From a virus: a DNA stretch of 23,323 bases. The stretch is taken from the IMG/VR virus record IMGVR_UViG_3300033149_000677, positions 1 to 23,323 of that record; one strand, 5' to 3'. The translations under genes and the position numbers were made by a program. Numbering within the stretch: the stretch's first letter is position 1; every line of letters starts with the position of its first letter. The notes beneath the pieces were generated by a model. That model saw only the letters and a program-made list of their open reading frames with translations. It searched no databases and was not told the origin of the DNA. Positions 1,275 through 13,831 of this stretch are shown one piece after another.

Positions 1275-1299
1275 CTAAATAGCTACATCAGGGTAAATA
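1275..1299 (+). promoter_or_regulatory. Tandem T4-type late promoters for the tail-tube gene
   Basis: Two late-promoter-like boxes, CTAAATA (1275-1281) and GTAAATA (1293-1299), stand 46 and 28 bases before the gp19 start at 1328. The T4 late promoter is TATAAATA at -10 with no -35. The downstream box is followed, after 10 bases, by ACATAGGAAAC and then the ATG; the same leader is found before the 338-aa gene at 5162. The two boxes are embedded in an ACCCT...AGGGT inverted repeat (1273-1294 region), so the upstream box could instead be part of a weak hairpin. Confidence 0.7.
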
Positions 1300-1327: not shown

Positions 1328-2092
1328 ATGACTGTCAACTCGCTTTCAAACTTTGGTGTACCGGGACTGAACGGTGACCGTTCGGCTCAGCTTCAACCAA
1401 TCTTATCCAACCGCTTCCGTGCGTTGTTTTTCAACTTCGGAACACCGGGTGAAGTAGCACCGTATGACCTGACACGCCAGATGCGTCGCATGGGTCGTCC
1501 GAACCTCGAATTCGAAACACAAACACTTTACTCCTACGTGTCTACTGTCTACATCGGTACTCGTGGTGAATGGGGAACAGTGGACGTTGTTTTCGTAGAC
1601 GACATCACCAACTCCGTACAGCAACGCGTACAAGAGCAGGTTGCCAAGCAACAGAACTTCTTCGACCAGACCATGTCTCGTGCCGGTGAGAACTACAAGT
1701 TCGAAATCGACCTAGACGTACTTGCTGGTGGGCAGTCTGCTGGTGGTTCTGCATCTGATCCAAACATCATTCAAAAGTGGTGCTTCGCTGGTTGCCAAAT
1801 TACCAACATGAACAATAACGAGCTATCTTATGAGGAAGCAACCGCGATGGAAATCACGTTGACTCTACGTTATGACAATGTTATCGGTTTCAACCAAGAT
1901 GGTTTCCGTATGGGTGTCTTCTCCCACGCTCCACAGATTGGTGCCCAACAGGGTGTTATCTCTACTGGTGCCGGTTCTGCCGGTGGTGGCGTTAGTACTT
2001 CGGGTGCTTCGGTTAGTATCGGTGTTTCTGGCTCGACTTCAATCGGTGGTGTTTCAATCGGTGGTAGTGCTGGTGGTTCATTCGGACTATAA
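1328..2092 (+). CDS. gp19: Tail tube protein, T4 gp19-like
   Basis: The 254-aa product is the major subunit of the inner tube of a contractile tail. It has the gp19-type pattern: an N-terminal region with LSNRFRALFFNFG and RQMRRMGRPNLEFE, a beta-rich core (LYSYVSTVYIGTRGEWGTVDVVFVDD split across residues 68-94), a helix rich in Gln (VQQRVQEQVAKQQNFFDQ), then QKWCFAGCQITNMNNNELSYEEA and the terminal strand MEITLTLRYDNV. The last 50 residues (about 205-254) are a Gly/Ser-rich tail absent from the 163-aa T4 gp19. The start is set by AGGAAA 8 bases before the ATG, downstream of late promoter boxes. A rho-independent terminator follows. Confidence in the tube fold is high; one-to-one orthology with gp19 is by pattern. 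Confidence 0.85.
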   Translation: MTVNSLSNFGVPGLNGDRSAQLQPILSNRFRALFFNFGTPGEVAPYDLTRQMRRMGRPNLEFETQTLYSYVSTVYIGTRGEWGTVDVVFVDDITNSVQQRVQEQVAKQQNFFDQTMSRAGENYKFEIDLDVLAGGQSAGGSASDPNIIQKWCFAGCQITNMNNNELSYEEATAMEITLTLRYDNVIGFNQDGFRMGVFSHAPQIGAQQGVISTGAGSAGGGVSTSGASVSIGVSGSTSIGGVSIGGSAGGSFGL

Positions 2093-2111: not shown

Positions 2112-2137
2112 AAAAAGGGGCGTTAAGCCCCTTTTTT
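2112..2137. terminator. Bidirectional rho-independent terminator
   Basis: AAAAAGGGGC (2112-2121), loop GTTAA (2122-2126), GCCCCTTTTT (2127-2136) form a perfect 10-bp stem. There is a T-tract on the plus strand and, by symmetry, one on the minus strand. It sits between the convergent ends of gp19 (+, stop at 2092) and bS21 (-, stop codon 2136-2138) and can serve both transcripts. The bS21 stop codon overlaps the T-tract edge. Confidence 0.92.
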
Positions 2138-2357
2138 ATTTGCGTCGTAAACGTGCAGCTTCATGCTTAGCGCGTTCTTTTTCCAGATTCTTTCTGGTGC
2201 GGTTGACAGCCTCCTTATGTTTTTTGCGGCGAGTATCCGATGGCTTCTCATAATAACGCCTATCCATAGCGTCCCTGATTGATCCATCATCGAACAATTT
2301 CTTCTTGAGAATCTTTAATGCTTTATCAACATTCCCGTTACGTACATCAATGCGCAT
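2136..2357 (-). CDS. rpsU: Phage-encoded ribosomal protein bS21
   Basis: This 73-aa, strongly basic protein matches the small-subunit protein bS21. It has the N-terminal strand (RIDVRNGNVDKAL), a helix with KILKKKLFDDGSIRDAMDRR, and the diagnostic RRYYEKPSDTRRKK (33-46; bacterial form REFYEKPTxxRKR), followed by a Lys/Arg-rich helical C-terminus. Length equals the cellular protein (about 70 aa). A strong SD, GGAGAA, lies 3 to 8 bases before the ATG on the minus strand. bS21 binds the 30S platform near the anti-SD end of 16S rRNA and assists initiation. Phage bS21 genes are known (for example in pelagiphages and huge phages) and are thought to bias host ribosomes. Here it is the only minus-strand gene within a plus-strand late block. 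Confidence 0.95.
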   Translation of the reverse strand: MRIDVRNGNVDKALKILKKKLFDDGSIRDAMDRRYYEKPSDTRRKKHKEAVNRTRKNLEKERAKHEAARLRRK

Positions 2358-2388
2358 GCTTTCTCCGTTATTAGGTTGTGGTCTGCGG

Positions 2389-2395: not shown

Positions 2396-2427
2396 TACTT
2401 ATTAGGAGTATTGAATATGGCAGTCAA
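2392..2427 (-). promoter_or_regulatory. Possible sigma70-type promoter for bS21 (weak)
   Basis: On the minus strand, TATATT (plus bases 2392-2397) is a 5/6 match to a -10 box, and TTGACT (plus 2422-2427) is a good -35 hexamer, but their spacing is 24, too long for a standard pair. TTGACT pairs at 17 bases only with a poor TAATAA. Some promoter must lie here, because bS21 is transcribed away from its plus-strand neighbour. The exact elements are uncertain. The -10 candidate overlaps the plus-strand late box. Confidence 0.3.
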
Positions 2428-3994
2428 TAAGCGCGACTTGAACACATTAACCGATGAAACGGGTTGGCCGTTTGTAAACTATGCTCAGGAAGAGCGTAAT
2501 TTACAGTCGGCTCCGGGCAATATTGCCTCGGCGTTAAGTATCCCCCGATTCAAGTTTACATGGGCAGTCGAATTCCAATTCAGTCCGCGAGCATTAGATA
2601 ATCCAATAACTAATTTGGCTGATTTTATCAATGACCGTGGGCGGTTATACGTACACCTGATATCCATCAATCACCCATCATCCACAATCAAGACAGAAAA
2701 ATTACGGTCGTACAACAAATGGATTAATGTACCAACGCAAGTTGAACATCCGTCAGCCAGTATGACATTCCATGATGACTCGACTTCCGTCGTTCAAGCT
2801 CTCTGGAAGGAAAATCTGAATTTCTATACACATCAAGCAACCATTGGTGACACACTATCTGGTAATCGTAGGACAAATTTAAGTTGGACTGACGAAAGTA
2901 ACTCGTATCAATTCACCGATGACTTGACTTCGACAGATGGCGGCGAAATGCGTTCCGCGATGGGGCGGAGACCTTCGTTGGGTATGAGATTAAAACCCAA
3001 TGACGGAAGACACTTTTTTGAATCCATAAAGATTATTGACCTCGGTACCGAACCGGACGGTCTTAACGTATATTGGTATCATCGTCCGATTATAACCGGA
3101 TGGGATATTGACGCACTCGACAAAGAAGATCGTACCGGAAACGTCAGAGTCACTGCCTCATTTGATTATGAGTCAACTTATTTCACCATCGGTCAATATC
3201 GTGGTCGTTTCGCGGGCGACGGTGAGACGGACGATAACGGACGCTTGTTTGCAGGGCGTGGTGCGCGTAAAGCGGGTATCGCTCGTGATGGATTGGAAGG
3301 ACGTGTCAACCGTCCCGTAGAACTCACAGAGGGTATAGTAGCCCCTGCTACTATCAGAGCAGCGGCAGAAGCAAAACGAGCGGCAGAAGTAGCAGCGGCA
3401 AACGAATTTATACACGACTTCGATGGTGTATTTGAACCGGCTCTTGAGAGTGAATTGAAACCAACTATACCGGAGAGTCTGGAAGGTAAGCAACAAGATT
3501 TGGAACAAGTTGAAGCAGAACGTGCAGCAATATTTGAGGATGCTCTCGAAAATGAAGACGCCGATTTAGAGAGACTGTCCGAACTTAATAAACGAGATAA
3601 TGAACTGACCGAGGCAATCAAGGAACAGAAAGCAACCGAGGCAGCAAGTGCCTTCCCCAACGAACCCGAACGTTCCGCATTACTTAATACCCAAGATGCA
3701 GCTAATATTGGTACATCAGATATCAGCACCACTTCGGTGCCCGACCCCGCTAACCAACAACTAGCAGACGATTTCCAATCTAACGCTGACTTCGCACAAA
3801 GGTCGGCTGATTTTGCTAATGCGAGTGCGGAGAGTCAGGAAAAGACCGCACAAGATATAGTTGAGTCCAACCCCAAACTGTCCCGCGAGTTGTCCGAAAA
3901 CGCCGCTGAACTTAGAGGGCTAGCAAAAGAGCAACAACGAACCGCTGATATATTTCAAGAGTCTGCCGATGCAACTAGACCCTTAAACCAATAA
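2417..3994 (+). CDS. Baseplate tail-tube cap/initiator-like protein (gp48/gp54 type) with long helical C-terminus
   Basis: The product is 525 aa. Residues 42-255 show the tube-fold pattern of T4-type baseplate proteins gp48/gp54, which seed and cap tail-tube assembly. IPRFKFTWAVEFQF is followed by TIKTEKLRSYNKWINVPTQVE, then PSASMTFHDDSTSVVQALW. FFESIKIIDLG and HRPIITGWDIDALD lead to a last strand VTASFDYEST. Residues about 256-525 are an Ala/Glu/Gln-rich, charged, largely helical extension (probable coiled coils near 310-430 and 450-520) with no counterpart in T4. A TTG at 2411 would extend the frame by two codons, but AGGAG (2404-2408) is 8 bases from ATG 2417 and only 2 from the TTG, so the ATG is chosen. 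The stop overlaps the gp4 start (TAATG). gp48 and gp54 cannot be told apart here. Confidence 0.7.
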   Translation: MAVNKRDLNTLTDETGWPFVNYAQEERNLQSAPGNIASALSIPRFKFTWAVEFQFSPRALDNPITNLADFINDRGRLYVHLISINHPSSTIKTEKLRSYNKWINVPTQVEHPSASMTFHDDSTSVVQALWKENLNFYTHQATIGDTLSGNRRTNLSWTDESNSYQFTDDLTSTDGGEMRSAMGRRPSLGMRLKPNDGRHFFESIKIIDLGTEPDGLNVYWYHRPIITGWDIDALDKEDRTGNVRVTASFDYESTYFTIGQYRGRFAGDGETDDNGRLFAGRGARKAGIARDGLEGRVNRPVELTEGIVAPATIRAAAEAKRAAEVAAANEFIHDFDGVFEPALESELKPTIPESLEGKQQDLEQVEAERAAIFEDALENEDADLERLSELNKRDNELTEAIKEQKATEAASAFPNEPERSALLNTQDAANIGTSDISTTSVPDPANQQLADDFQSNADFAQRSADFANASAESQEKTAQDIVESNPKLSRELSENAAELRGLAKEQQRTADIFQESADATRPLNQ

Positions 3995-4635
3995 TGGCTC
4001 GCTCAACTAACAAAGGCGCATTCAATCCCCAGTATCCACAGAAGTATACGGGGGATTATCCGATTATATATCGCAGTTCGTGGGAGTTGGAGTTCATGCG
4101 CTATTGTGATTTACATCCGGGTGTTATGGAATGGGCTTCAGAGCCGCAAAAAATTCCTTACCAGAATCCACTGAACGGAAAGCAAACGGTTTATGTTCCA
4201 GACTTTCTCGTGACATACATGAAAGCGGGTGGTGGCACAAGTACCAAACTCATCGAAATCAAACCACTCCACGAAGCATCCGCAGCGCACGCAACCAATA
4301 GGATGGACGTAGCCCTCAGAATCAAAAATGAATCCAAGTGGGGTGCAGCAGCACAATGGGCAGCACGTCGCGGCATTGACTTCATCGTATTGACCGAAGC
4401 TGAGTTGTATAGTAACCACGCAAATCGCAAGGGTCGTGCTCACCCAATCAAAGCTGTGGGTAAGGAACAAGTACGGTCTAATAAGCCATCCACTAAGGGC
4501 AAAACGAAGAAACAAACGGCATCAAACCTTGGCACAGCGAGCAGAGCGGCTAGATCACAATCCAAGGCTAGGTTGGGTAATTCGGTAAGTAGAGTAGGTA
4601 AGGTACAAAAAGCTAAGAGGTCAACCAAACGATGA
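3994..4635 (+). CDS. gp4: Head completion protein, T4 gp4-like nuclease fold
   Basis: This 213-aa protein matches T4 gp4 (150 aa), the head-completion protein that acts on packaged DNA ends and head closure. It keeps the YRSSWELEFMRYCD block (26-39), the aspartate of VPDFLV (Asp70) and the IEIKP motif (87-91). Together these form an E...D...ExK arrangement like restriction-endonuclease and TnsA folds. AAQWAARRGIDFIVLTE follows at about 122-138. After residue 146 comes a roughly 65-residue Lys/Arg/Ser-rich tail, much longer than in T4 and probably DNA-binding. The ATG overlaps the upstream TAA by one base, and the stop overlaps the gp16 ATG (ATGA). Position before the terminase genes fits a head/packaging operon. 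Confidence 0.85.
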   Translation: MARSTNKGAFNPQYPQKYTGDYPIIYRSSWELEFMRYCDLHPGVMEWASEPQKIPYQNPLNGKQTVYVPDFLVTYMKAGGGTSTKLIEIKPLHEASAAHATNRMDVALRIKNESKWGAAAQWAARRGIDFIVLTEAELYSNHANRKGRAHPIKAVGKEQVRSNKPSTKGKTKKQTASNLGTASRAARSQSKARLGNSVSRVGKVQKAKRSTKR

Positions 4636-8035: not shown

Positions 8036-8626
8036 ATGGCATCGGACCGTAAATTTGAGAAGGCTTTTACTGAACAGGACATGTTAGATTCCATTGCTTC
8101 CGATTTTGGTGGTGGTGAATCCGCAGTGGATACTGCCCTCCCTACCCCAGAGCGGGTGGACGAAGCAGCACACATTCCACGCGTTCGTGTGAAGGTTAAA
8201 AAGCTCCCCCATTTCGACGGACTCTCCGAACTCGCCATGGCTACAATTGGTAGCGTCGGTATCGATCTTTACTGTGCGGTCAATAAGTCGGTTTGCCTAA
8301 ATAACATGGGTGCGAGGGAAATAATTCCTACGGGAATTTCCATCGAACTACCGATTGGTTTCGAAGCTCAAATTCGACCACGGTCTGGATTGGCAGCAAA
8401 ATACGGGATCACCGTTCTCAATACACCGGGAACAATAGATTCTGATTATCGGGGCGAGATAGGCGTCATCTTGGTGAACCTATCTACAAAGAAATTCTTC
8501 GTTGAACGAGGAATGAGAATAGCCCAGATGGTTGTCAAACCTACTATCATACCGGTTCTCGACTATGTTGAAGAACTGGACTTGACAGGACGTGGTGAAG
8601 GCGGATTCGGATCAACCGGACAATAA
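8036..8626 (+). CDS. dut: Deoxyuridine 5'-triphosphate nucleotidohydrolase (dUTPase)
   Basis: The enzyme hydrolyses dUTP to dUMP and pyrophosphate, keeping uracil out of phage DNA and feeding dTMP synthesis. All five motifs of the trimeric dUTPase family are present: GSVGIDLYC (72-80), RPRSGLAAKYG (114-124), NTPGTIDSDYRGEIG (129-143), RGMRIAQMVV (158-167) and GRGEGGFGSTG (185-195). The aspartate of motif 3 is retained. At 196 aa it is longer than the usual 150 or so because of an N-terminal extension of about 46 residues (acidic, Gly/Glu-rich, low complexity) before the canonical start near IPRVRVKVKKL. The ATG at 8036 has a weak AAGAGA upstream. A later start inside the extension is possible but no better RBS was seen. 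Confidence 0.96.
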   Translation: MASDRKFEKAFTEQDMLDSIASDFGGGESAVDTALPTPERVDEAAHIPRVRVKVKKLPHFDGLSELAMATIGSVGIDLYCAVNKSVCLNNMGAREIIPTGISIELPIGFEAQIRPRSGLAAKYGITVLNTPGTIDSDYRGEIGVILVNLSTKKFFVERGMRIAQMVVKPTIIPVLDYVEELDLTGRGEGGFGSTGQ

Positions 8627-8704
8627 CTTAATAGAACTGTATAAAACTGTAATAAATTTGTAGATTCAATAAAGAACTGCATATAACTTAAGAGGAATAG
8701 TCTA
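8627..8704 (+). promoter_or_regulatory. AT-rich gp32 leader, candidate autogenous translational operator
   Basis: The 78 bases between dut and gp32 have 19 G/C by hand count (about 24%) against roughly half in the flanks. They contain repeated AACTG-plus-A/T units (near 8634, 8645 and 8675). The leader ends in AAGAGGAA, 8 bases before the gp32 ATG. T4 gp32 represses its own translation by binding an unstructured AU-rich leader next to a pseudoknot; this leader is a plausible equivalent. A TTGTAG-18-TATAAC pair (8658-8687) could be a promoter but would start transcription inside the SD. Confidence 0.5.
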
Positions 8705-9886
8705 ATGACTACAATGCTAGAACGCATGCGTGCCCGCGTGCAAGAACGTGCCCCACAATTCGAAAAAGATTACTCAATCTACGCATTCTGGAACCTTAAA
8801 TTTGGTGGATCAAGTACCTTCCGCCTGTTGCCATTCAACGACCCGTATACCGGTGGTTTCTGGACCGAAAAGGTCATGCTGCCAATGCAATTCACCGATC
8901 CCAGTGATCCTGAAAAGGTTGTTAAGTTCATGGCTCCGTGTCGTGAAATGTATGATCACGCCAACAAATGCCCTATCCTCGTACCCGTGCGCGAACTGTA
9001 CGACGAAGAAAAGGAACTGCGGAACTCTGGTAACACCAAGGAAGCCGACAAGCTGAAGAAGATCGCCGGTTTTCACTGGAAGAAGCCTACCTTCTACTAC
9101 CAAGGATTTGTTAACAAGTCCGGCATGGCGGAAGAAGAAACTCCAGAAAATCCGATTCGTGTCTTTCCGTTCAACAAGAAGATTCATCAGATCATCTATA
9201 ACTCGATCTTCCATTCCGACGAAGACCCGTATGAAACTCTACCATGTGGTGAGTTCACTCAGGAAGACGTTGAAGCGCTTCTCGGTGACGGCGATGTAGA
9301 TATGTCGATTTTCGACGGCTACAACTTCATCGTCAAGAAGGGACAACAGGGCGAATACGCCGACTGGACAACTTCGTCTGGCTGGTCCAAGTCCCAGAGC
9401 CCACTTACTGATGAGCAACTGGCTGCTATCGCGGAGTACAAACTCCACGACCTGACCAAGCGTCTGCCTGACCGTCCAAGCGAAGAGATGTATGAAGTGC
9501 TGGCTGAGATGATGACTCTCTCCGTTCAGCGCCAACTTACTGGCGAAGTCGCGGTATGGAACACCGAATGGGAAGCACTTGGTTTCAAGCCTTTCCGTCA
9601 GCGTGGTGACAAGTCCCAAGCTGGAGATGCAACTAAATCTTCCGCTCCGGCTTCCACTGAAGAAGGCGCAGGTGCCGGTAGTGCACTCGACCGTCTGAAA
9701 GCTGCACGCGGTAAGACCGCTGAAGCTCCAGCCGAAACCGAAGCCGAATCACCAGCCGAGGTTGCAGCCGCAGCCGACACTGATGTCAAGGTTGAAGAAG
9801 TTGCTGTTCCTGAAGAAGCGGGTGAGACTCAGGTCTCCGATCTTGCAGCTAAGATCAAAGCTCGTGTAGGTAAGAAATCGGCGTAA
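8705..9886 (+). CDS. gp32: Single-stranded DNA-binding protein, T4 gp32-like
   Basis: The product is 393 aa, against 301 in T4. It has the gp32 layout: a basic N-terminal segment for cooperative binding (MLERMRARVQERAP), an OB-type core opening with YAFWNLKFGGSSTFRLLPF (26-44), a KFMAPC...CP segment corresponding to the zinc-binding strand, HWKKPTFYYQGFV, and NPIRVFPFNKKIHQIIYN (146-163). From about residue 310 it becomes an Ala/Glu/Pro-rich acidic low-complexity tail, the partner-binding region in T4. It ends, unusually, in a basic helix DLAAKIKARVGKKSA. Cys79-X9-Cys89 keeps the T4 C77/C87 spacing, but the third cysteine (T4 C90) is replaced by Leu in CPIL and no histidine matches H64. The protein coats ssDNA in replication and recombination with UvsX and the UvsY-like protein downstream. 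Confidence 0.9.
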   Translation: MTTMLERMRARVQERAPQFEKDYSIYAFWNLKFGGSSTFRLLPFNDPYTGGFWTEKVMLPMQFTDPSDPEKVVKFMAPCREMYDHANKCPILVPVRELYDEEKELRNSGNTKEADKLKKIAGFHWKKPTFYYQGFVNKSGMAEEETPENPIRVFPFNKKIHQIIYNSIFHSDEDPYETLPCGEFTQEDVEALLGDGDVDMSIFDGYNFIVKKGQQGEYADWTTSSGWSKSQSPLTDEQLAAIAEYKLHDLTKRLPDRPSEEMYEVLAEMMTLSVQRQLTGEVAVWNTEWEALGFKPFRQRGDKSQAGDATKSSAPASTEEGAGAGSALDRLKAARGKTAEAPAETEAESPAEVAAAADTDVKVEEVAVPEEAGETQVSDLAAKIKARVGKKSA

Positions 9887-9895
9887 GCTGATGTG

Positions 9896-9946
9896 CCCGA
9901 CCCTGCTGAACGATTACCTCCTTTTAGTTCGCGGGGTCGGGTTTTT
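9896..9946 (+). terminator. Long terminator-type hairpin after gp32 with anti-SD-like loop
   Basis: CCCGACCC (9896-9903) pairs with GGGTCGGG (9934-9941), followed by TTTTT (9942-9946). The stem continues inward by T-G, G-C and C-G pairs, one bulged T9907, and GAAC/GTTC (9908-9911, 9927-9930), giving 15 pairs. The 15-base loop (9912-9926) reads GATTACCTCCTTTTA, close to the 3' end of bacterial 16S rRNA. It lies between gp32 and uvsX and would separate their transcripts at least partly. Confidence 0.8.
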
Positions 9947-9969
9947 GCCTAAACTGAGAGGAAACAATT

Positions 9970-11157
9970 ATGGCTAGTAAATTCACAAAGAAGCGCCAGA
10001 AGGCGTTCTCAACTCTAAAATCTGAGACGATTAAAGCAGGGTTTTCCAACATCGACATGTGGGTTGATATGGGAAATTTCTCAATGAATCGTATCATGTC
10101 CGGCAAGTTCAATGAAGGACTGCTGTTCGGACGACAGTATGTATATTACGGCGAGTCTGGTTCGGGCAAATCCCTACAGACAGCTTATGCATGCGCTAAT
10201 GCACAAAAGGCACATAACGCGTTTGTCCTATGGATCGACGTGGAAAAGGCAACCGATGATGTCGCTGGTCAGCAATGGCTTGAACGTGTCGGTGTCGATC
10301 TTGACGAAGATAATTTTCAGTACATGACTGGCGCTACGCTCAGCGATTGTAAGAAGACTGTCTCAGAAATGTGCAAGATGTACCGTGAAGCATACGAGGC
10401 TGGCGACTTTGACAGACCAATGGTCATCGTTGTTGATTCGTGGTCTGCGGCTATGACCGAAAAGCAATGGGAAGAAGCTCAGGCTGGTACCATTGTTGGT
10501 GACATGGGACAGAAGGCTAAACAGACCGGTGACGTGGTTCAGTCCATCACCCATCTGTGCAGCCACTTACCTGTCATGGTATTGGGTGTCGGTCACATCA
10601 TGGACAATCAGGAAAAGTACGGAGCGAAGCACAAGACTACCGGCGGTCATAAGATGTTTTATATGGCATCGGGTTGTCTCATGTTGACCAAGGTGGCACT
10701 CAAGGAGAACGATAAAAATCGTGCTATTGAGGATAAAGAAGTCGCGAAGTATTGGGCGGACATGAAGGCAGGCATGACTGCGGATCACAAGAAGCGTAGT
10801 CAGATTATTGGTCACGTTTGTGTCATTGATAATCTCAAGTCCCGCGCATCCAAGCCCGGACAGCGCATCGAAATTCAAGTGCCGTTCAACACTGGTATGG
10901 ACGCGTATTCTGGTCTGTTCGATCTGCTCATGTACGAAGGTGCCATCACGGTTCCGTCAATAGGTTGGTATCAAATCGGTAAAGGGGACACACTCCAGAA
11001 ATTCCGCAAAGGGGATTTCCGAAAGCATGCTGATGCTGCGATGATATGGGCTGATGATCTGAATCCGAGTGGTGTCTCGCGCCCGCTTACCGATGAAGAA
11101 GTCAAAGCAGAACTTGCTGCGGCGGATGCTGAGGAAGACGAGGCTACTGATGAGTAA
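9970..11157 (+). CDS. uvsX: UvsX RecA-like recombinase
   Basis: The 395-aa product (T4 UvsX 391) is the strand-exchange recombinase that drives recombination-dependent replication. Walker A GESGSGKS is at 61-68, ALWID-type beta strand FVLWIDVEKATD at 85-96, Walker B MVIVVDSWS at 151-159. VMVLGVGHIMDNQEKYG and the KTTGGHKMFYMASG DNA-binding loop region follow, then the UvsX-type C-terminal pattern FNTGMDAYSGLFDLLMYEGAI and an acidic end. In KTTGGHKMFYMASG the GG matches the GGGTGPMYSAD region of T4 UvsX. AGAGGAAA lies 5 bases before the ATG. The stop overlaps the next gene by 8 bases, so UvsX and the UvsY-like partner are translationally linked. Confidence 0.93.
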   Translation: MASKFTKKRQKAFSTLKSETIKAGFSNIDMWVDMGNFSMNRIMSGKFNEGLLFGRQYVYYGESGSGKSLQTAYACANAQKAHNAFVLWIDVEKATDDVAGQQWLERVGVDLDEDNFQYMTGATLSDCKKTVSEMCKMYREAYEAGDFDRPMVIVVDSWSAAMTEKQWEEAQAGTIVGDMGQKAKQTGDVVQSITHLCSHLPVMVLGVGHIMDNQEKYGAKHKTTGGHKMFYMASGCLMLTKVALKENDKNRAIEDKEVAKYWADMKAGMTADHKKRSQIIGHVCVIDNLKSRASKPGQRIEIQVPFNTGMDAYSGLFDLLMYEGAITVPSIGWYQIGKGDTLQKFRKGDFRKHADAAMIWADDLNPSGVSRPLTDEEVKAELAAADAEEDEATDE

Positions 11158-11710
11158 GTCGCGCAGAGCGCAGAGATGGTTCGACACGGTTCGTGACGCA
11201 TATGATGACCTCGATGATGATGACAAGAAGGACACATTCATCAACGCGGTCATTGGTGCGTCGGAGTACTTTCTTAAAGTGGAAAAAGATTCCACCGACG
11301 AGCTTTTGATTGTCGGTAGACTTGAGAGCATGTTGCAAGAAAATACTGCACTCGGTTATTTCTACAACAGCGTTCACACTGACGCCCTCCAGATACGAAA
11401 GTATCTAGAAACGGTATTATCAGATTATGAATACAAGAAGTATGTTTGGTATCAAACCACATCTGATGGCAAAGCACTACTCGGCACCAAACCAACAGCG
11501 ACCGATCTCAAAAATCACATCAAGGCGGAAGATGTGGTTACCTTGCTAAACGACTGCATCCGGCTTATTGCCGACCGCCAACATGTATTGGAAGACCTTC
11601 GGGAAGGATTCATCACCCGTGGATTCACTCTGAAGACCATTACCGATATCCGAATAGCAAAACTTGAAGAGGTATGGATCGATGGGACACGCGAAACAGA
11701 TAACTCCTGA
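11150..11710 (+). CDS. uvsY: UvsY-like recombination mediator (probable)
   Basis: The reading frame runs back to 11069 inside uvsX, but ATG 11150 (ATGAGTAAG) with GAGGAAG 12 bases upstream, overlapping the uvsX stop, is the likely start; this gives 186 aa. The C-terminal 70 residues parallel T4 UvsY (137 aa). TDLKNHIKAEDVVTLLNDC corresponds to SEMKTVLSADKDVLKVDTS, and ITRGFTLKTITDIRIAKLE (155-173) to IKSRGFAIKHIQDMRAFEA. The upstream helix with YLETVLSDYEYKKYVWYQ also fits. UvsY loads UvsX onto gp32-coated ssDNA. The flanking genes are gp32, uvsX and uvsW, exactly its partners. The similarity is by eye and weak in the N-terminal half, which has an acidic DDLDDDDKKD stretch not found in T4. 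Confidence 0.65.
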   Translation: MSKSRRAQRWFDTVRDAYDDLDDDDKKDTFINAVIGASEYFLKVEKDSTDELLIVGRLESMLQENTALGYFYNSVHTDALQIRKYLETVLSDYEYKKYVWYQTTSDGKALLGTKPTATDLKNHIKAEDVVTLLNDCIRLIADRQHVLEDLREGFITRGFTLKTITDIRIAKLEEVWIDGTRETDNS

Positions 11711-12380
11711 GCCGACTAAACCCGGTACGCTGATTGATATTGAAGGTGAAAGACATATTTTCAATGGCCTATTTTGGCAACCGTTACGCGGTCGTGAGCT
11801 AAACAACTCGTTGCAGACATACGGTGGCAGTTTTGTATGGCCGCTAGACCCTTATGCTGACGAAATTGACTATCTCTCGGTGGCTCACGGACTCGCATGT
11901 GAGATGCGTTACGGCAATCAATCACCATATCCGCTTCCGGTTGCTTGGCATTCGGTAGCATTAAGCCATGTGGTGCCCCAGAAGTACGCTCAGACGGCGT
12001 TAATTCATGACGCAGCCGAAGCCTACCTCAAGGACATGCCGCGCCCTATACGTCGTCAGGAGCCGTTCAAGAGCATCTATGATGCGATTGAAGACAAGCT
12101 ACTGAGGACTTGCTTCGAATACTTTGGTGTTGACTATTCACTCATGGACGATGAGTTCCTGTATTACGACATCAAAATGAGTTGGTGCGAGATGACCGTA
12201 TGGGCTCGTACCAGTCCTGTATTCGAAGCGAAGCTGAATGCATTACATATATCATCCCCCGAACGCATTGAAGATTCTCTCGACGAGGACTACATTAAAT
12301 GGGTGGAGAGATGTCCGCGCCATGAAATGTGGCAAAGCGCTGAGAAGGCGTGGCTAGAGCGGTACGATGAATTATTCTGA
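11682..12380 (+). CDS. HD-domain metal-dependent phosphohydrolase
   Basis: The frame opens with a TTG at 11664, but ATG 11682 with AGAGG 9 bases upstream is the better start (232 aa), overlapping the previous gene by 29 bases. HD-family signatures are visible: the first histidine in VAWHSVALSH, then ALIHDAAEAYLKDMPRPIRR (HD pair followed by EAY.KD.P.P), typical of the YfbR/5'-nucleotidase-like branch that dephosphorylates dNMPs using divalent metal. Later aspartates (LYYDIKMSW) could complete the site. N-terminal to this are about 70 residues of unclear fold (IDIEGERHIFNGLFWQPLRG). In context it may recycle host nucleotides or adjust dNTP pools; substrate is inference. The stop overlaps the uvsW start (TGATG). 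Confidence 0.85.
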   Translation: MGHAKQITPEPTKPGTLIDIEGERHIFNGLFWQPLRGRELNNSLQTYGGSFVWPLDPYADEIDYLSVAHGLACEMRYGNQSPYPLPVAWHSVALSHVVPQKYAQTALIHDAAEAYLKDMPRPIRRQEPFKSIYDAIEDKLLRTCFEYFGVDYSLMDDEFLYYDIKMSWCEMTVWARTSPVFEAKLNALHISSPERIEDSLDEDYIKWVERCPRHEMWQSAEKAWLERYDELF

Positions 12381-13831
12381 TGCCAACAGCAAAGATAGTT
12401 ATACATGATGAAGTCAATGTAGAATTCCGTGGGGTAGACCCTGACACCCTCTATGAGTGTCAGGAAGAATTAACCTACTACGTCCCGGGCTACATACACA
12501 TGGCGAAGGTAAAACTTGGCTGGTGGGACGGGCGAATCAAACTAATGAAAGCCTCGGGGTACACCAGCTTCAACCTGATTGAATACATCGACCCCATCCT
12601 AGTACAAGCGGGATATAATTTCGAAATTATTGACGAACGCTCTTGGGTCGATAATGTTTCCGACAAGCTACAATACATCGACGACTCTTATCTTAACGGT
12701 TTCTTAGATCGTGAGGGTAATCCGATCACGTTATGGAAGCACCAAGTCACCGCCGTCAACACAGCAATTGAGCGTGGGCAGGGTGTATTGGAACTCGCTA
12801 CCGGTGCAGGTAAAACTATCATCTGCGGCATCATGGCTAAGGTGTGGGCTCCTCACGGGCGCGTCGTAATTATTGTTCCTAGCATCGACCTCATTCTCCA
12901 AACACATTATGAGTTTCAACAGCGGATGGGATTGGATGCCGGTATCTGGTATGGTGAACGCAAAGAACGTAAGCAAGTTACCATAGCTACATTGCAGAGC
13001 TTGGATCACTTTCCTGAACTGTTCAATGAAGTTATCTGTGTCATCGTGGACGAAGTACACCAAGCCAAGGCACAGGTACTAGGTGAGATGCTGTCCGGTC
13101 CCGCTGCTAATGTTCCATTCCGATTTGGTTGCACGGGAACGCTTCCAAAAGAAGACCTATTCCGAAAGCAAATCGAAGCTACGATTGGTAAGCACATTTA
13201 CGTGGTTCGCTCGAAGCATCTACAAGACCTTGGCGTGCTCGCAAAGGCGGAGGTCTACCAAATGAAGTTGGGAGACTCGAAGAATCCTACATGGGAGAAA
13301 GCATCAGCCCACCATGAACTCTGGAAGGACGAATTGGATTGGATGTTTTCCGATGAATTCCGCATGATGTATTTGGCTGTCACCATCGAAGAGATTGTCG
13401 AAGAGTTCGGCAATACGTTGGTGTTGGTTCAGTACCGTGAACACGGAAAGAAGTTGGCAGCATTATTACCTGATGCCATATCGCTTGATGGTAGAGACAA
13501 GAATCGCCGAGACCACTACGAGACGTTTAACAATAACGACAACGGTTTGCTTATTTGTACATACGGCATTGCATCCACCGGTATCGACATACCCAGAATT
13601 TTCAATCTCGTCATAATTGAGCCGGGGAAAAAGTTTGAAAAAGTTATGCAGACTCTCGGTCGTGGTTTTAGAATAGCCGAGGACAAGGACCATGTTAACA
13701 TCTTCGATATATTCGGAGACTCTGGCTTGAGTAAAAAACATGCCGCGTCCAGAAGAACGTTTTATAAAGATGCCCAACAACCATTACAAATAATCGAGGT
13801 GGAGTACTACGATGTTAATACTAACGGCTGA
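12380..13831 (+). CDS. uvsW: UvsW-type SF2 helicase
   Basis: The length of 483 aa compares with 503 for T4 UvsW, a helicase that remodels branched DNA and R-loops and switches origin to recombination-dependent replication. The N-terminal about 110 residues (GWWDGRIKLM, dsDNA-binding module) precede helicase motifs: LWKHQ Q-like region, Walker A ATGAGKT (140-146), IVPSIDL, DEVH (224-227; DEAH-type), CTGTLPKE motif III, CTYGIASTGIDIP (motif V) and QTLGRGFR (motif VI, arginine finger). The start overlaps the HD gene stop by 1 base, and the end overlaps the following gene by 20 bases. All catalytic motifs are intact. Confidence 0.95.
   Translation: MPTAKIVIHDEVNVEFRGVDPDTLYECQEELTYYVPGYIHMAKVKLGWWDGRIKLMKASGYTSFNLIEYIDPILVQAGYNFEIIDERSWVDNVSDKLQYIDDSYLNGFLDREGNPITLWKHQVTAVNTAIERGQGVLELATGAGKTIICGIMAKVWAPHGRVVIIVPSIDLILQTHYEFQQRMGLDAGIWYGERKERKQVTIATLQSLDHFPELFNEVICVIVDEVHQAKAQVLGEMLSGPAANVPFRFGCTGTLPKEDLFRKQIEATIGKHIYVVRSKHLQDLGVLAKAEVYQMKLGDSKNPTWEKASAHHELWKDELDWMFSDEFRMMYLAVTIEEIVEEFGNTLVLVQYREHGKKLAALLPDAISLDGRDKNRRDHYETFNNNDNGLLICTYGIASTGIDIPRIFNLVIIEPGKKFEKVMQTLGRGFRIAEDKDHVNIFDIFGDSGLSKKHAASRRTFYKDAQQPLQIIEVEYYDVNTNG

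Follow-up and report, generated by a model that had tools for sequence, protein, structure and literature searches.

A phage bS21 gene placed antisense in the virion block of a T4-like phage group, with a proposed symmetric late promoter shared with a tail-tube-like gene

The DNA analysed here (the window) is a 23,323-base IMG/VR virus record (IMGVR_UViG_3300033149_000677) and matches part of a 31.6-kb contig at 99.96% identity. On its minus strand it carried an intact gene for the 30S ribosomal protein S21 (bS21; 2136-2357), encoding 73 amino acids from an ATG start to a TAA stop. The predicted protein exceeded the curated cut-offs of both PF01165 (1.9e-16; 59.9 bits, cut-off 27) and the TIGR00030 equivalog (9.9e-16; 57.3 bits, cut-off 28.95), covered the full domain (residues 2-53 aligned with positions 2-54 of the 55 in the PF01165 profile), contained the RRYYEKPS residues and also matched the PHROG family 'ribosomal protein S21' (4.3e-13). 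A Shine-Dalgarno (SD) motif, GGAG (2363-2366, minus strand), lay 5 bases 5' of the ATG, and a purine-rich ribosome-binding site was kept at this place among the relatives (GGAG, GGGG or GAGG). The dN/dS of bS21 against its relatives was about 0.06-0.09, as under purifying selection, and the antisense placement was retained in those relatives that carry the gene, which together argue against a chance open reading frame. The sequence-only reading, a full-length bS21 with the RRYYEKPS signature and a strong ribosome-binding site, lying antisense in the structural block, was thus borne out, the virion genes on both sides (1328-2092 and 2417-3994) being on the plus strand.

The convergent neighbour of bS21 encodes the tail tube protein (1328-2092, plus strand; phrog_4542, 1.7e-38). 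The divergent partner (2417-3994, plus strand) is separated from bS21 by 59 bp and encodes 525 amino acids from the ATG at 2417, with a predicted tail-tube or tail-completion fold in the N-terminal 260 residues or so (phrog_4542, 8.1e-07; Foldseek). Its AlphaFold model matched T4 neck and tail-tube proteins and contractile-injection tube proteins in Foldseek; since the confidence of the model was modest (mean pLDDT 57, core strands 60-83), these matches were read only as indicating a putative tail-tube-like virion protein. A TTG start at 2411 was rejected in favour of ATG 2417 on comparison with the relatives. In the lineages compared, bS21 and the partner were divergent. On its 3' side, the partner was followed by a head-closure gene and then by the gene for the large terminase subunit (TerL), five genes downstream of bS21. 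The head-closure homologue (3994-4635) also matched the N-terminal domain of a TnsA-like endonuclease (PF08722, 3.5e-19). Elsewhere in the window, a histidine-phosphatase-superfamily gene (463-1035) is kept in the virion block across this phage group, and a 760-aa tail-fibre gene contains, at 19513-19956, two 285-bp stretches that are 81% identical and lie about 160 bp apart in register.

The whole window was colinear with a 360-kb virus contig (G001), at protein identities of 31-85%. The nearest TerL proteins of cultivated phages (36-42% identity) belonged to the jumbo phages Atu_ph07, Phosso and the PA5oct group, and G001 encoded T4-like replication genes and 42 predicted tRNAs. The window is probably a fragment of a jumbo T4-like myophage of 360 kb or more. 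The tRNA arrays of G001 (L039-L041, L051-L053) included one CTA (amber) anticodon and one predicted four-base CTTA anticodon. Genes were SD-led, with an SD motif at 62 of 147 first-ATG open reading frames against 13 of 147 control positions.

G001 also encoded a gp55-like late sigma factor (phrog_12791, 3.9e-30), in a genome region outside the 23-kb window. This gene (141703-143187 of G001; L046:1703-3187) matched T4 gp55 in two pieces, with roughly 330 unrelated residues between them in one frame, an insert that is probably an intein. The top 7-mer upstream of G001 genes was GTAAATA (28 observed in 80-nt upstream regions, 2.8 expected), and TAAATA occurred 48 times at -52 to -22 of genes, against 3.0 expected and 9 for the reverse-complement control. 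Genes with this motif included those for the major head protein, tail sheath, head-tail adaptor, baseplate hub and tail tube, as well as homing endonucleases and many proteins of unknown function; two HNH homing endonuclease genes with the core were located at 67460-69331 and 190279-191430. In the window, six of the eight TAAATA occurrences lay at -52 to -27 of five virion-block genes. Besides the core of the bS21 partner, these comprised two cores (1276 and 1294; 1276-1299, plus strand) upstream of the tail tube gene and, on the minus strand, single cores at -42 of a tail-fibre gene (core 18372-18377; gene 16479-18335), at -38 of the gene at 21108-21467 (core 21500-21505) and at -32 of the gene at 21509-22003 (core 22030-22035), while the replication block (8036-16482) had no upstream TAAATA. 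The T4-family late consensus is TATAAATA, with CTAAATA in Aeh1 (PMC1524935), and by sequence and position TAAATA is the T4-family late -10 core in this phage group. As in T4-family late promoters (gp55/gp33/gp45), the core stands 20-50 nt 5' of virion genes and a gp55 homologue is encoded in G001; the bS21 junction differs in having its two cores joined head to head, forming what is proposed to be a bidirectional element.

This element is the 14-bp sequence GTAAATATACTTAT (2389-2402), proposed from comparison with relatives as the core of a bidirectional late promoter. Its plus-strand half is the late -10 core TAAATA of the divergent partner (2390-2395, at -27), and its minus-strand half, directed towards bS21, is TAAGTA (2396-2401, at -44 from the bS21 ATG), one mismatch from TAAATA. 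At the same junction, L004, L005, L018, L023, L030 and L032 carried the perfect palindrome GTAAATATATTTAC. Nine of 11 lineages, all but the window and L027 (TGAATA), had an exact bS21-directed TAAATA at -39 to -44, although the bS21 proteins of these lineages are only 43-82% identical to that of the window; because of the kinship among the lineages, which is close for L023, L030 and L032, the nine do not represent nine independent events. Both half-sites persisted even where their spacing had changed, with 1 bp added in L009 and in interrupted form in L029. In the latter, the tail-tube gene has been relocated, but bS21 and the partner remain divergent; use of the partner's core is uncertain there, because the core lies about 165 nt from the partner's start.

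Within G001, a head-to-head TAAATA pair with a 0-1 bp spacer was found at the bS21 junction only, with 0.03 expected if cores were placed independently. More loosely spaced head-to-head pairs occurred four times in T4, as did the backwards control, so that such pairs mean little and only the 0-1 bp spacing was used as evidence. TAAGTA was not clearly enriched as a promoter variant in G001 (3 observed, 1.3 expected). Since its own half-site is TAAGTA, bS21 transcription in the window may be weak or start from elsewhere. A second palindrome, TAAATATATTTA, was present in a longer contig belonging to the phage that the window comes from (G007, 30942-30953; L163), between a GIY-YIG-like homing endonuclease fragment on the minus strand and a plus-strand gene; a symmetric promoter is accordingly not unique to bS21. 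Symmetric -10 elements drive transcription both ways in bacteria, according to Warman 2021 as cited in PMC10268837. The bacterial promoters resemble the junction in their symmetric -10 and in divergent transcription, which is proposed here, and differ in that the phage element would be read by a late sigma rather than by sigma-70 and is conserved between two coding genes.

At the other end of bS21, between the convergent gene ends, a GC-rich hairpin (AAAAAGGGGC-GTTAA-GCCCCTTTTT; 2112-2136) is proposed to be a bidirectional terminator. The hairpin between the tail tube gene and bS21 was kept in relatives, with compensatory changes in 5 of 8 pairs. A distant relative, L037, had the tail tube gene, the hairpin, a one-way TAAATA and a gp3/tail-tube-like gene in this order, without bS21 between them. 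As L037 is distant (32% tail-tube identity), an insertion of bS21 in the other lineages, rather than its loss from L037, is only inferred.

Taken together, a likely account of the locus is an antisense insertion of bS21 between a terminator and a late promoter, the latter then turning bidirectional, and this would couple the output of bS21 to that of the virion genes; promoter activity in both directions and the order of events are what we infer from the comparison. The ancestral junction would have consisted of the tail tube gene, the terminator, the late promoter and the gp3/tail-tube-like gene, and the bS21 gene would have entered on the opposite strand, between the terminator and the promoter. 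The TAAATA core would then have become symmetric, allowing a gp55-type late sigma to fire in both directions, so that bS21 would be transcribed one way and the tail gene the other from the shared promoter, with the hairpin at the far end of bS21 stopping both convergent transcripts. Made late and in step with the virion genes, phage bS21 would swap with host bS21 on 30S subunits and could help or bias initiation on the abundant late phage mRNAs.

The reverse orientation of bS21 had suggested a separate, possibly earlier, timing of its expression; the conserved late core points instead to late timing, in common with the divergent virion gene. The most economical prediction from these sequences is that bS21 is expressed late and coupled to its partner; this prediction is least secure in the lineage of the window, given the TAAGTA half-site there. 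In other jumbo phages with an antisense bS21, those of Bacteroidetes, metatranscriptomes showed bS21 expressed late with the virion genes, at transcript levels resembling those of the opposite-strand neighbour (PMC9723584). That bS21 is early or dependent on a host sigma factor, and merely located in the late block, appears very unlikely. It would fit the reverse orientation and the position of bS21 outside the virion blocks in the cultivated phages HTVC008M, Mosig, Melnitz, SCTP-2, Phosso and Atu_ph07, where its neighbours are replication, tRNA, Clp or heat-shock genes; yet no sigma-70 promoter upstream of bS21 scored better than shuffles in any of 11 lineages, and an early sigma-70 promoter was rejected on this ground, whereas a late core is conserved at the right distance from bS21 and the analogous published phages express the gene late (PMC9723584). 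The palindrome might also be a protein-binding operator, or the by-product of a strong one-way tail-gene promoter, with bS21 transcribed elsewhere or hardly at all. Operators can be perfect 14-bp palindromes and the bS21 half-site of the window is degenerate, but the half-site is identical to the genome-wide late core, the other strict palindrome likewise lies between divergent genes, and the retention of both cores in interrupted form (L029) or with 1 bp added (L009) would be unusual for a dimer operator; this explanation is held to be quite unlikely.

The sequence-only reading had looked to a comparison with host bS21 to name the host; the comparison gave only a type, and a tree of 60-70 aligned residues would resolve little. 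At a threshold of 1e-6, the window bS21 had matches in 267 of 289 Alphaproteobacteria genomes and in 5 of 60 Bacilli genomes, and by sequence it is clearly alphaproteobacterial in type. The closest bacterial bS21 in class-level searches was only about 50% identical, and a genome scan for bacterial bS21 near that of the window gave none closer than 46%. A small contig in an alphaproteobacterial genome (L192) encoded a bS21, possibly phage-derived, that shares about 50% identity with that of the window; the genome has another bS21 as well. With a bacterial gene on a metagenome contig, a host rpsU could have been put into a phage contig by cellular contamination or misassembly, but the chance of this is negligible: it is already refuted by the many independent assemblies, and the 360-kb phage contig, in which bS21 is placed identically, and the best bacterial bS21 is only about 50% identical.

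As to the function of the protein, the bS21 of HTVC008M enters 70S ribosomes in E. coli, the resulting ribosomes supporting in vitro GFP translation at only about 5% (PMC6375957). By analogy, the window bS21 is probably able to enter host ribosomes, and exchange of phage bS21 into them is likely; any preference for late phage mRNA is hypothetical. The drop to about 5% could, by the same analogy, reflect inhibition, and would then favour a phage bS21 that acts outside the ribosome, or that inhibits translation to shut off host synthesis, over a replacement that favours the phage. We regard this as unlikely, given that the bS21 family residues are kept under purifying selection, that the same HTVC008M study found incorporation into 70S ribosomes (PMC6375957), and that late timing suits virion production better than early shut-off. 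The fuller proposal, that a late promoter was made palindromic and bidirectional for a captured bS21 and that late bS21 yields ribosomes dedicated to virion mRNAs, is put forward only tentatively.

Phage bS21 genes, called rare in the sequence-only reading, are not rare: one scan of IMG/VR confirmed at least 443 relatives, about 900 phages with bS21 have already been published (PMC9723584), and bS21 made up 88% of the ribosomal proteins found in uncultivated viruses (PMC6375957). The antisense placement is no general rule, since among the best 80 phage bS21 loci of one scan only four had bS21 opposite to both neighbours, all of them in the window's group. The Bacteroidetes jumbo phages (Chen et al. 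2022, PMC9723584; L168-L187) share with this group a reverse-strand bS21 in the virion block, its conserved placement and a jumbo myophage type. Their bS21 adjoins the genes for TerL, portal, protease and major capsid protein (MCP), whereas here it adjoins the tail tube and tail-tube-like genes and the MCP gene of G001 (167.6 kb) is about 35 kb from bS21 (202.5 kb). Their GC content is 31-34%, against 47% here, and their bS21 is Bacteroidetes-like, while that of the window is alphaproteobacterial in type and has Asn52 in place of the aromatic residue at F. johnsoniae Tyr54 (ungapped by-eye alignment). Lacking this anti-SD-blocking aromatic residue, it should not be assumed to share the Bacteroidetes-specific mechanism. 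The TAAATA palindrome was absent from the Bacteroidetes-type bS21 intergenic regions; these phages have a 105-110-bp gap upstream of the antisense bS21, in which a stretch resembling TATTTATTATCAT is conserved and many also carry the inverted repeat AGTCAA-AAC-TTGACT; their promoter design is a different one. HTVC008M (Pelagibacter) and Melnitz (Methylophilales) are likewise T4-like phages with a bS21 related to alphaproteobacterial sequences, but theirs is co-directional with its neighbours, lies outside the virion block and is 37-40% identical to the window's.

An antisense, late bS21 in jumbo phages was already known (published 2022); what is new is a further phage group with other neighbours, a candidate mechanism of coupling and a bS21-free outgroup. 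In the open-licence literature, no paper joining phage bS21 with a late promoter was found. To the question of how the timing and dosage of ribosomal proteins are set by phages, the locus offers a testable answer at the sequence level, namely one symmetric late promoter shared by two genes. The Bacteroidetes phages with late antisense bS21 are thereby joined by a group that is apparently independent, has a bS21 of alphaproteobacterial type and makes normal use of SD motifs; late bS21 may thus be a convergent strategy that does not depend on the SD-independent initiation seen in Bacteroidetes.
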